64,000 nt of DNA from an uncultured Pseudomonadota bacterium (GTDB lineage: Bacteria > Pseudomonadota > Gammaproteobacteria > Steroidobacterales > Steroidobacteraceae): contig CAISEB010000041.1 in NCBI GenBank assembly GCA_903884235.1, positions 1-64,000 of the forward strand, written 5' to 3'. The notes under the pieces are model-generated. The model was given only the letters and a program-made list of their open reading frames with translations. It was not told the DNA's origin and did not search any database. Position 1 is the stretch's first letter; each line of letters opens with the position of its first letter. The position numbers and the translations under genes were made by a program. Shown here one piece after another: positions 41,552 through 47,688 of the stretch.

Positions 41552-43564
41552 GTGGCCACCGCGAAGTCGCGGATGCTGGCACTGCGCGCCGAAATCGCGC
41601 GCCACGACCATCGCTACTACGTGCTCGACGACCCGGAAGTCCCGGACGCCGAGTACGACCGCCTGATGCGCGAGCTGCGCGCGCTCGAGGCCGAGCACCC
41701 TGCGCTCGTGACCCCGGACTCGCCGACGCAGCGCGTCGGCGGAACTGCGCTCAGGGAGTTCGGCGAGGTCGTGCACGGCATGCCGATGCTGAGCCTCGAC
41801 AACGCGTTCAGCGAGGAGGACGTCACGGCGTTCGACCGTCGCGTGCGCGAGCGCCTGGAGCTGCCGGACGGCGAGCAGGTCGAGTACAACTGCGAACCCA
41901 AGCTCGACGGGCTTGCGATCAGCCTGACCTACGTCGACGGCGTGTTCACCGTGGGTGCGACGCGCGGCGATGGCGTGAAGGGCGAGGACGTCACCGCCAA
42001 CCTGCGCACGATCGGCAGCGTGCCGCTCAGGCTGCTGGGCGGACGCCACCCGAAGCTCGTCGAGGTGCGCGGCGAGGTGTTCATGGGCGACGCCGGGTTC
42101 GCGAAGATGAACCGCGACGCCGAGGCGCGTGGCGACAAGGTGTTCGTGAACCCCAGGAACGCCGCGGCCGGCAGCCTGCGCCAGCTCGATCCGTCGATCA
42201 CGGCGACCCGGCCCCTCGAGATCTTCTTCTACGGCGTCGGCTCCTTCGAGGGCGGCTCGCTGCCGCCGCGGCACAGCGAGTTCCTGGCCCAGCTCAGGGA
42301 GTGGGGCCTTCGGACCTGCCCCGAGATCCGCGTCTGCACGGGCGTCGAGGGGCTGCTCGACTACTACCGCGAGATCGGCCGTCGCCGGCCCACGCTCGGC
42401 TACCAGATCGACGGCGTCGTCTACAAGGTCGACTCGCTCGGGCGGCAGCGCGAGCTCGGCTTCGTGGCGCGGGCGCCGCGCTGGGCGATCGCGCACAAGT
42501 TCCCGGCCGAGGAGGAGATGACCCAGGTCCGCGACGTCGAGTGGCAGGTGGGCCGCACCGGCGCGCTCACCCCCGTCGCGCGCCTCGAGCCCGTGTTCGT
42601 CGGCGGCGTCACCGTCAGCAACGCGACGCTGCACAACGTCGACGAGCTCACGCGCAAGGATGTCCGCATTGGCGATACGGTGATCGTGCGTCGTGCGGGC
42701 GACGTGATCCCGGAGATCGTGCGGGTGATCCTGGAGCGGCGCCCGAGGGGCACGGACGTCGTGCAGCTGCCAGCCTCCTGCCCGGTGTGCGGATCCGCGG
42801 TCAGCCGGATCGAGGGCGAGGCCGTGGCGCGCTGCACCGGCGGGCTCGTGTGCCCGGCGCAGCGCAAGGAATCGATCAAGCACTTCGCGAGTCGAAGGGC
42901 GATGGACGTCGAGGGGCTCGGCGACAAGCTCGTCGAGCAGCTCGTGGATGCCGGCATCGTCGCGAGTGCCGCGGACCTGTACGCGCTGACCGCGGCGCAG
43001 CTCGAGGGGCTCGAGCGGATGGGGGAGAAGAGCGCGGCGAAGCTGCTCGCGTCGATCGCGGCGAGCCGCGAGACGACGTTCGCCCGGTTCCTGTTCGCGC
43101 TCGGCATCCCGAACGTGGGTGAGGCGACGGCGCTGGGGATCGCCGAGCATTTCGGGACGCTCGACTCGCTGCAGTCGGCCTCGCTCGAACAGATCATGGC
43201 GGTCCCGGACGTGGGTCCCGTGGTTGCCGAGGACGTGCGTGAGTTCTTCGATTCGAAGCGCAATCGCGACGTCGTCAACCTGCTACTGGCGCACGGCGTC
43301 GCGTGGCCCGCCCCGACGGCTTCCAAGTCAGAGAATCAGCCTTTGGCTGGGAAGACCCTGGTGCTGACAGGCACGCTGCCGACGCTCGGTCGGGCTGACG
43401 CCGAGGCTCTCATCAGGAAGGCTGGTGGGAAGGTGGCGTCGTCGGTCAGCAAGAAGACCGACTATTTGGTTGCGGGGGATAGCGCTGGTTCGAAGCTAGA
43501 TAAGGCTACGCAATTAGGCGTGGCGGTTATTTCCGAGGAACAATTGCTCCACCTCGTACGGTAG
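41552..43564 (+). CDS. ligA: NAD-dependent DNA ligase LigA
   Basis: LigA seals nicks in replication and repair. The 670-residue protein is complete. The adenylation domain has the nucleophile Lys117 (CEPKLDGLA), followed by an OB fold, a four-Cys zinc finger (CPVCGSAVS...CTGGLVC), HhH motifs and a C-terminal BRCT domain ([20 protein letters not shown]). It starts at GTG 41552. The last ~250 bp are clearly less GC-rich than the rest, and the stop is overlapped for 38 bp by a convergent gene of the AT-rich locus. Confidence 0.96.
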
Positions 43565-44312
43565 AACCGATTGGCGAAGCCTTGGCGGGATCTACCCAGG
43601 CGAACGCGCCGATGCCAACCGTGACCTCTCGTTCTCTGGGCGCACCCTCAAGTTCACGCTTGGCCAACCAGTCGTCGACGGAATCAATAAGGTATTGACC
43701 CTGCTGCTCGACGAATCGCAGAAAGACTGGAAGATCAGTGGCGCGTATACGAACATCCGCGACATGGCGCTCGTAACGCGCGGGAACTCCTCCAGAAACG
43801 TTATGAGTAACGGTGCCAATTAGCCGGATGATTGCCGCGGTAGCGTGGGCAAGGATTAAGGGTGTTGGCTGCCCGACAACAGCTGATCTCATTTCTGGCG
43901 TGAAGTGCGCTCCGGATTTCGAGACGAATCCAAATTCGATCATGTCACCGACGAGCTGCTTTGCGGCTGGACTGTTAGGGCAAACGCTTAGAGCGAGTGA
44001 TGTCAACGATACCTTTCCTTCCCGTCGGAGCAGGCGAGGGCAGCCATCCTTGGTTAGGTAGGCGCCGTTCGTGTGCCACTGATTGAGCGCGGCGGCTGCA
44101 TCGCGCAGCCTGAGATAGCTCCGGTGCAGGTCAACGGGGTCCGTCGGATCTGCTTCGAGAATTACGTCCCGGAGTACGTCGCTGCCAATGAATTTTTCCA
44201 GCAAGCTATCGAAGGCTTTCAATACATCGTTGCGAGCGGCTCGCGCGATTGGCTTCAGCGCGAGTCGCCGATTTGGGATCTTAGAGCTAGTAGCTCTGGC
44301 CTTCGTGCTCAT
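43527..44312 (-). CDS. DUF6502-like protein, paralogue C
   Basis: This 261-residue protein has no signal peptide or membrane segment. The region [20 protein letters not shown], then [20 protein letters not shown], and the C-terminal [20 protein letters not shown] parallel the other two DUF6502-like proteins here. Its N-terminal helix-turn-helix-like part is the most diverged of the three. It lies 17 bp after paralogue B in the same direction, so they are co-transcribed. It overlaps the ligA 3' end by 38 bp. The biochemical function of the family is not known. Confidence 0.6.
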
Positions 44313-44329
44313 GGTGGCAGTGTCGCTAG

Positions 44330-46774: not shown

Positions 46775-46803
46775 TTGTCGATTCCCCTAGCGCGAGAAAT
46801 TTT

Positions 46804-47688
46804 TTATTTCGGTCGTTCTAAAACTTTCGAATCACGAAGCGCGATCTCTGATGGATCAATTCGATCGGCTTCGTTTTCCACATACAGGTAAACGCCTACG
46901 CCCACGCCGAGGCGGTCTTCATCCGCGCCGGGTGGGTTCGAAGTCATCCAAGCGTCGAGTTCCTCCAGGAACTTGCCGCCCCGCTCTTCGAGAAACACGG
47001 AGAGCTTCGGAATCTGTCGGGCTGAGAGCCCATGGTCCGCAGCAACAGTGCGTTCAAATCGAGCGTCTTCTTCGCGCTCAATACGAATGTTGTGACCGAG
47101 CGTCTCGACGACGTTGCCGACGACCCGGGACAGCCGATTCAGGCTCACGTCCGTGAGGGCGTCCGGTATGTAGGCGCGGTTCTCTAGACGAAGGAGGCCC
47201 GATTCCAAGCGGCGAACAGCACCGACGCCGATAAGTTCTTCAAGCAATTGAGCAGGCGGCGTCGCGCCGCTATATCGCTTGGCGAGATCGGAGAAGCTGA
47301 GCCCGTCGGCATCGTCCAAAGGCCCGAACGCAACGTCCACCGGCCAACCGTATGGGCCGACGTAACGCGGATCACTCGACCAACCAGTCAGAAGCCGGGT
47401 GATGCGCGCGAGGCGAGTGCGATCACTACTGCCCGAATCTTCCGCCCAAGATTTGAGAATTCGGTCAACGATCGGGCGCGGAAGTCCGGTCAGGATCGCT
47501 ACTCTGGGGATTGAAGCGTCCGTGCCTCGCATCCAAGAGTCCTTGATGCTTTCCTCAATGAAGATGTCGCGCGCCGTATCGGAGAACTCGCTGAACGAGA
47601 TTCCATTCCGAAGCATGAGACGAACCAGCGGCCGGAAGAGCCGCCGGTACGCCTCGAGCAAGCGGTACCTGAGATTGAACTTAACCAT
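46804..47688 (-). CDS. DUF6502-like protein, paralogue A
   Basis: This 294-residue protein is the most typical member here: YRRLFRPLVRLMLRNGISFS, EFSDTARDIFIEESI, then RVAILTGLPRPIVDRIL (helix-turn-helix-like), LLTGWSSDPRYVGPYGWPVD, FSDLAKRYSGATPPAQLLEE and a C-terminal FLEELDAWM. It starts at ATG 47688 and ends 29 bp before the repeat-protein gene, so the two probably share a transcript. The domain order suggests a DNA-binding or adaptor protein, but the family has no established function. Confidence 0.72.
   Translation of the reverse strand: MVKFNLRYRLLEAYRRLFRPLVRLMLRNGISFSEFSDTARDIFIEESIKDSWMRGTDASIPRVAILTGLPRPIVDRILKSWAEDSGSSDRTRLARITRLLTGWSSDPRYVGPYGWPVDVAFGPLDDADGLSFSDLAKRYSGATPPAQLLEELIGVGAVRRLESGLLRLENRAYIPDALTDVSLNRLSRVVGNVVETLGHNIRIEREEDARFERTVAADHGLSARQIPKLSVFLEERGGKFLEELDAWMTSNPPGADEDRLGVGVGVYLYVENEADRIDPSEIALRDSKVLERPK

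Follow-up and report, generated by a model that had tools for sequence, protein, structure and literature searches.

DUF6502 proteins, candidate transcription regulators, are linked across genomes to a secreted protein with OB-like domains and a repeat tail

What holds three diverged members of one protein family together around a single secreted protein with a long repetitive tail? We addressed this question for a locus at positions 43527-47688 of a 64,000-nucleotide stretch (hereafter the window) of contig CAISEB010000041.1, from an uncultured bacterium of the Steroidobacteraceae. A preliminary description of the window had proposed four minus-strand genes here, with three related proteins around a secreted PGISGSG-repeat protein, and these four open reading frames (ORFs), which we call A, B, S and C, were confirmed. 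We found that the combination of a DUF6502 gene with a secreted OB-domain or repeat gene is a conserved system rather than a chance neighbourhood. As an account of the whole, we lean slightly towards one in which C would autoregulate a C-S operon, B and A would act as a heteromeric partner and S would be an exported polymer. The locus comprises the following features.

43527-44312, minus strand: gene A, an ORF of 261 amino acids, a DUF6502 relative without the N-terminal helix-turn-helix segment but with the C-terminal segment retained
44330-45124, minus strand: gene B, an ORF of 264 amino acids with a GTG start, a DUF6502 member with N-terminal and middle segments retained and the C-terminal segment eroded
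45377-46774, minus strand: gene S, an ORF of 465 amino acids of exported type, with a signal-peptide-like N-terminus, two OB-like domains and a repeat tail
46804-47688, minus strand: gene C, an ORF of 294 amino acids, a full-length DUF6502 member with a predicted helix-turn-helix, a winged-helix-like segment and long C-terminal helices
46229-46693, minus strand: double OB-like (DUF5666-like) domain of S, from an AlphaFold2 model and Foldseek
45386-46177, minus strand: repeat tail of S, with 24 contiguous PGISGSG copies separated by spacers of 4-5 residues
47689-47754, minus strand: conserved 66-nucleotide leader directly 5' of C, with the inverted repeat ACATAATC (47737-47744) ... GATTATGT (47694-47701), the proposed operator of the C-S operon
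45318-45360, minus strand: strong RNA hairpin immediately past the S stop codon, a possible end of the C-S transcript, with no T run after it

The genomes that carry our G handles overlap with the named loci (for example L122/G006:C134 and L169/G018:C29), and the counts below are not additive. Among 60 relatives, DUF6502 was found in 47 and matches to the S profile (E<=0.01) in 39. A DUF6502 gene lay within 2 kb of 23 of the 25 short S genes and of 14 of the 30 long DUF5666 genes, in total 37 of 55 against about 0.17 expected on a genome size of 3.5 Mb assumed for most genomes; this count used 103 DUF6502 matches, with 15 weak and mostly A-type ones omitted, and the 55 best S matches. Both unlinked short S genes had no DUF6502 on their contig, one of them with the contig start just upstream (G038:C203) and the other with a different gene upstream (G009:C11). 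When named genomes were scanned with C-type sequences and without use of S, 80 loci were returned, all in records titled as metagenome-assembled genomes and mostly labelled Gammaproteobacteria or only Proteobacteria (including Woeseiaceae, Steroidobacteraceae, Chromatiales and Nevskiales), with two Rhodospirillaceae, one Planctomycetales and one Nitrospira among the other labels. We searched for the following same-strand gene in an interval that begins 260 bases before the end of C and extends 600 bases past its stop codon. This gene matched the S profile in 47 loci and was a tandem-repeat ORF in 23, giving 70 of the 80; the contig ended in six loci, and four had neither, including L131, with S upstream, and L175, with a repeat ORF (IDSSS) that was missed by the glycine rule. 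In a phylum-wide sample, DUF6502 was present in 21 of 398 genomes, 20 of them listed besides the source genome. These 20 genomes held 23 DUF6502 genes outside the order, of which 14 were followed by an S-profile gene and four by another exported-looking ORF without the S profile (L207, L211, L218 and L221); L204, L208, L229 and L230 had neither, and L213 was ambiguous in this reading of the gene map by eye. The proportions linked among the 80 loci and among the out-of-order genes are the reason why we regard the combination as a conserved system, and the linkage of DUF6502 to secreted OB/DUF5666 or repeat genes that the preliminary description had proposed thus extends well beyond the window. 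Separately, a short DUF6502-like ORF was seen between C and S in L206.

The transcription order in the window is C (47688-46804), S (46774-45377), B (45124-44330) and A (44312-43527). Because only 29 bases separate C from S and 17 bases separate B from A, as against 252 bases between S and B in which the hairpin region folds strongly (-42.5 kcal/mol, z -4.64 in RNA folding), we read the locus as two adjacent minus-strand transcription units, C-S and B-A. A terminator scan of the locus did not list the hairpin past S, since the T run is missing after it. The four-gene locus of the preliminary description holds for the window; elsewhere the commonest unit is just C-S, and S-B-A without C also occurs.

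The region directly upstream of C is conserved. The 66-base leader is identical to that of L122, whose C protein is 83% identical to C of the window, at 60 of 66 positions, compared with 16 of the next 64 bases and 51 of 100 third codon positions of C, and the inverted repeat pattern ACATAATC...GATTATGT occurs at one place in the source genome. Among 76 nonredundant sequences upstream of C genes, ACATAA was present in 37 and TTATGT in 34, against 3.6 each in shuffled sequences, where no 6-mer exceeded a count of 16 in 100 sets. One or other word stood within 150 bases of 61 of the 76 C genes. Eight of these upstream sequences (the window and seven relatives) had been added by hand after inspection and five others left out; with the eight excluded the proportion was 55 of 68, and it was 1 of 5 among those left out. 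In the named loci, none of the 53 other DUF6502 genes had either word in front of it. The count was 1 of 17 for B genes from the window's family (a scan that took in a few A-type genes) and 5 of 363 for other ORFs, which are likely richer in G+C, so that the shuffled sets are the fairer control.

At -11 to -6, the TTATGT arm adjoins the C start codon. A palindrome, GGGA-N6-TCCC, is present in 19 of the 76 upstream sequences; its distance from TTGAC could be measured in 17 cases, and in 15 of these it starts 18 nucleotides past the first base of that word, a spacing that would put it where the -10 box is presumed to lie. Repressors typically have sites at such positions, over the -10 box and beside the start codon. 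Seven spacings, of 57-59 bp, are between two copies of one word in the same orientation. Three S genes of the same genus that have no C upstream (L042, L043 and L227, with B-A after S in the former two) lack both words before S (3/3), as expected if C reads ACATAA/TTATGT. A sigma-70 promoter scan of 43300-48300 found none and was uninformative, and the regions upstream of C and B in the window have no word longer than 8 bases in common. Two families that are widespread and of no described function are in this way joined into one testable unit with a candidate operator, and of the two explanations first offered for three paralogues in a row, that of specialised regulators of one secreted product gains support from the C-specific promoter motif. 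Two same-genus C genes without the words, L032 and L036, share a conserved stretch in the last 25 bases before C that ends in TTAAGTT at the start codon, and the operator may have changed there along with its regulator.

The AlphaFold2 model of C (predicted local distance difference test score 86.1, predicted template modelling score 0.63) contains a helix-turn-helix at residues 60-84 (helices 60-67 and 71-84), followed at 132-168 by two more helices and two short strands in a wing-like arrangement, and then by the long C-terminal helices. Classed by title, 36 of its top 50 structural matches in the PDB were named transcription regulators, all below significance, the best being HetR; a sequence search of the PDB with the C and S profiles gave nothing significant. 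DUF6502 proteins are probably DNA-binding, and the family gains a first likely role, as a transcription regulator.

All three paralogues had been described as DUF6502-like (PF20112; curated cut-off 27 bits), and a Pfam search supported membership directly for C (122 bits, E 2.6e-35, profile positions 6-265 of 268) and B (80.9 bits, positions 14-154). A stayed below the cut-off (17.5 bits, E 0.002, positions 89-259) and joins the family only through a wider comparison: it scored 73.1 bits over positions 91-275 of a C-type profile built from other genomes, on which ground we take it to be a true DUF6502 relative without the N-terminal part. A-type genes of relatives can exceed the cut-off (35.4 bits in G005, 34.5 bits in G024). 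We compared the three proteins with profiles of the N-terminal segment (C residues 1-88, with the predicted helix-turn-helix), the middle segment (96-172) and the C-terminal segment (176-270), counting a segment as present at 10 bits. The respective scores were -4, 14 and 48 bits for A, 50, 56 and 3 for B, and 89, 79 and 86 for C; thus B and A have lost opposite ends. Among 214 complete DUF6502 ORFs, a set that contains duplicates owing to the overlap of G genomes and named loci, 164 had all three segments, 28 lacked the N-terminal one and 22 the C-terminal one.

All 28 complete genes of the A type, those without the N-terminal segment, adjoin another DUF6502 gene; an isolated weak A-type gene could be missed in this count, as the 40 genome stretches were picked from DUF6502 places, clusters first. 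Of these genes, 22 directly follow a B-type (15) or full (7) member and two precede one, three are third genes of triplets and one is convergent (L041). In 19 A-B pairs, picked by similarity to the window proteins, the N-terminal part was kept in 0 of 19 A proteins and the C-terminal part in 5 of 19 B proteins; the segment test on the 214 ORFs covers all members found. In this pair, adjacent paralogues have clearly lost complementary domains. Because an A-type gene was never seen without a partner, and the partner is often without the other end, we infer from sequence that B and A act as one heteromer with split functions and may be in direct contact, which favours the hetero-oligomer that had been offered as the other explanation. 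Loci of the Woeseiaceae type have a B-like gene with a weak C-terminal segment and no A, upstream of or convergent to C-S, for which reason A is probably a later addition.

S begins with a hydrophobic, signal-peptide-like stretch in a simple hydropathy test. At full length it has no Pfam match at E<=1, and its domain alone falls below the cut-off of DUF5666 (PF18914; 27 bits), at 15.6 bits and E 0.02. Among 47 aligned S domains, however, 45 match DUF5666 at E<=0.1 (best 3e-23), and at least four S genes of relatives exceed the cut-off among the matches listed. The double OB-like domain was modelled by AlphaFold2 with a predicted OB fold (local score 93.0, template modelling score 0.86), and Foldseek gave an SSB protein as the best match at E 1.2e-3, followed by Stn1/Ten1, PilY2 and RPA, none at E<=0.001. 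The DUF5666-like OB modules of the preliminary description are thus upheld by the predicted fold and by the relatives, with the window protein itself below the Pfam cut-off. The source genome encodes a second DUF5666-like exported protein, of 478 amino acids (L222:3957-5393, G000:C8), on another contig and with no adjoining DUF6502 gene.

The 24 PGISGSG cores of the tail define 23 intervals of 11 (19 times) or 12 (four times) residues, which indicates that no altered copy was skipped. The core is written in 16 distinct DNA versions, with a proportion of synonymous differences (pS) of 0.617 and of nonsynonymous differences (pN) of 0, and the 19 full 11-residue units have a pN/pS of 0.099. The residues of the repeat are therefore constant under free synonymous change. 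Nine of ten further arrays had a pS of 0.52-0.77 among copies with identical residues, the array of L069 being more homogeneous (0.138); copies in these ten arrays were found by exact match, which makes pN 0 by construction. At least three copies of one core were present in 80 of 88 S or repeat ORFs. Across these 80 arrays the anchor was required to be I, L, V or M, so that this position is fixed by construction, and the register is off in a few proteins. Directly ahead of the anchor stood G, A or S in 78 arrays. Of the positions behind it, the second was G in 64, the third S, G or T in 72 and the fourth G or D in 63; a period of 8 was commonest, and periods of 10, 11 and 12 also occurred. The residue right after the anchor was uniform within an array and variable between species (D 14, S 13, G 13, T 11, N 8, H 7, R 7, and others). 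Since these positions are kept across arrays and this residue is species-specific, the pattern is conserved while the unit changes, and what emerges is a secreted family in which the repeats obey a residue pattern although their unit differs from species to species. The contig ends within 32 of the 70 S or repeat ORFs found downstream of C (loci L122-L201). The repeat tails probably break draft assemblies and hide complete loci, and such breaks may explain why the system stayed unseen. At the distant DUF6502 loci L214, L215, L216 and L218, the secreted neighbour has at its C-terminus a long low-complexity tail rich in glycine, not an Ile-containing repeat.

In the account towards which we lean, C would bind the ACATAA/TTATGT words that flank its own promoter and start codon through the helix-turn-helix and winged-helix segments, and would thereby set the level of both itself and S as an autoregulated C-S operon. 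S would be exported, its two OB domains carrying a flexible tail of species-specific 'small-Ile-x-Gly-small' repeats; the repeats may provide many weak, identical binding points on this chain, making S an extracellular or surface polymer. B and A may be a duplicated DUF6502 pair between which ancestral functions were split, B keeping the DNA-binding end and A the C-terminal end, and their heteromer would be a second regulator that modulates the same product as C. The regulator part is the strongest piece of this account and the role of S the weakest. A bolder extension is that S is a species-marking extracellular material whose tails stick best to their own kind, in an amount set by C and the split-regulator B/A heteromer; it builds on the constancy of the small-Ile-x-Gly-small pattern together with x and flanking residues that are uniform within a protein and different between species, and we consider it improbable.

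Several observations weigh against this account. No structural match of DUF6502 was significant (best E 0.096, to HetR), the template modelling score of C is just 0.63, and Pfam helix-turn-helix matches were weak and scattered, the commonest occurring in 6 of 70 DUF6502 members. Both promoter words are absent from 15 of the 76 C upstream sequences and from four of the five C genes left out, and in the phylum-wide and long-DUF5666 sets the motif precedes just 7 of the 31 C-type genes (24 without it). Other DUF6502 promoters lack it, so that position only ties B-A to the C-S promoter. The genes also separate: 16 of the 30 long DUF5666 matches have no DUF6502 gene on their own contig, including the 478-residue protein of the source genome, G009 has an S gene and no DUF6502 gene that we could find, S-B-A occurs without C in L042 and L043, and B-A occurs without an adjoining C-S in L044. 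What points to a polymer role of S is its composition and nothing else. Finally, the leader also folds as RNA, an 81-nucleotide stretch reaching -20.2 kcal/mol (z -2.99), with 3 of 200 shuffles as stable.

This fold, together with the TTATGT arm that adjoins the start codon, would suit control of translation by the RNA itself, through a hairpin of the C-S mRNA in which the ribosome-binding region is hidden, DUF6502 having some other role. The changes in L122 argue otherwise, as on our reading of the alignment they break the inner 4-bp stem at two pairs without compensation, and word pairs in direct orientation 57-59 bp apart cannot pair as RNA at all; no Rfam family reaches its gathering score near the leader, where three matches were all far below. 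We regard RNA-based control as distinctly unlikely, and as the sole explanation it is weakened by the direct-repeat arrangements and the L122 changes. DUF6502 might instead be a cytoplasmic partner of S, such as a chaperone, export or assembly factor, with the promoter motif belonging to an unrelated regulator. The tight pairing of C and S fits a partner equally well, as does the lack of significance of the PDB matches, but the order of helix-turn-helix and wing-like segment in the C model, the regulators among its top structural matches, the specificity of the motif for C promoters and its absence before the S genes without C (3/3) speak for a regulator, and make such a partner, on balance, unlikely.

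For S, the main rival to a free polymer is a pilus-related role, in which S would be an accessory of type IV pili or of another surface fibre and a relative of PilY2. The PilY2 structure 3tdq was among those that Foldseek matched to the S model, the Pfam model of PilY2 is hit by 3 of 47 S domains (best E 5.8e-5), and the DUF6502 genes of L208 and L209 adjoin large ORFs that look PilY1-like, with an ORF beside that of L208 that is presumably pilin-like. This neighbourhood occurs, however, at just 2 of the 23 out-of-order DUF6502 genes, L208 has no S gene and the window locus adjoins ligA instead; we consider the pilus-related role rather unlikely. That the tail is a neutral or slippage-driven expansion without function could be argued from the variation of unit and copy number between species and from the nearly homogeneous DNA of the L069 array (pS 0.138), but the synonymous divergence of the 24 contiguous cores in the window at a pN of 0, and the comparable pS in nine of the ten other arrays, render this highly improbable.

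The account of a regulator and its secreted product having been weighed, we turn to the surroundings of the locus. The ligA gene (41552-43564) is convergent to A and overlaps its end by 38 bases. As 69 of 121 loci (a set that contains duplicates) have ligA no more than 3 kb away, the position next to it is probably old. On the other side, a transposase gene (48291-49616, DUF772 and DDE domains) adjoins the locus outside the four genes, with one full copy in the genome and one 75-base partial match. A mobile or viral origin was rejected, this transposase being a single full copy outside the four genes and one pattern scan of viral contigs having found no relative; anti-phage defence was likewise set aside, none of the four proteins (0/4) matching a PADLOC model at E<=1. 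A search of the source genome for DUF6502 found no member beyond A, B and C. The G+C content of A (0.565), B (0.576), S (0.659) and C (0.584), against 0.692 for ligA, agrees with the AT-richer stretch first described. Elsewhere in the window, a 14-kb stretch at 4001-18000 has a G+C content of 0.49-0.56, compared with 0.61-0.78 in most of the rest, with a sharp edge near 18000, and could be an acquired island.

The preliminary description knew of no described function for this combination, and we found none in the open-licence literature, where DUF6502 was not mentioned. In the portions of that literature available to us, DUF5666 appeared only as list entries or in passing, and the repeat words of S gave nothing relevant. 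Both families are catalogued, and in the same portions we found a described function for neither; a regulator together with its secreted product is a known kind of arrangement. In Pfam, DUF6502 is a family without stated function, to which C and B belong by score and of which A keeps the C-terminal two thirds; its definition does not include the loss of one end by B and of the other by A. DUF5666 is matched by nearly all aligned S domains, and the DUF5666 proteins also found are of about 500 amino acids with many modules, whereas S has two modules and a repeat tail. Winged-helix regulators of the DtxR, MarR, IclR and CRP kinds dominate the top 50 structural matches of C, none significantly, and C would resemble them in its presumed autoregulation at a palindromic site, although no common sequence family was found. 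PilY2, of type IV fimbrial biogenesis, has an OB fold like that of S, but its solved chains are of 77-86 residues with one domain and no repeat tail, and its gene context is unlike that of most S loci. The elastin core is VPGxG and the RTX nonapeptide is GGxGxDxUx. Like these, the S tail is built of short, glycine-rich tandem repeats in a secreted protein; on inspection its small-Ile-x-Gly-small core matches neither, and from the RTX nonapeptides it differs in spacing too.

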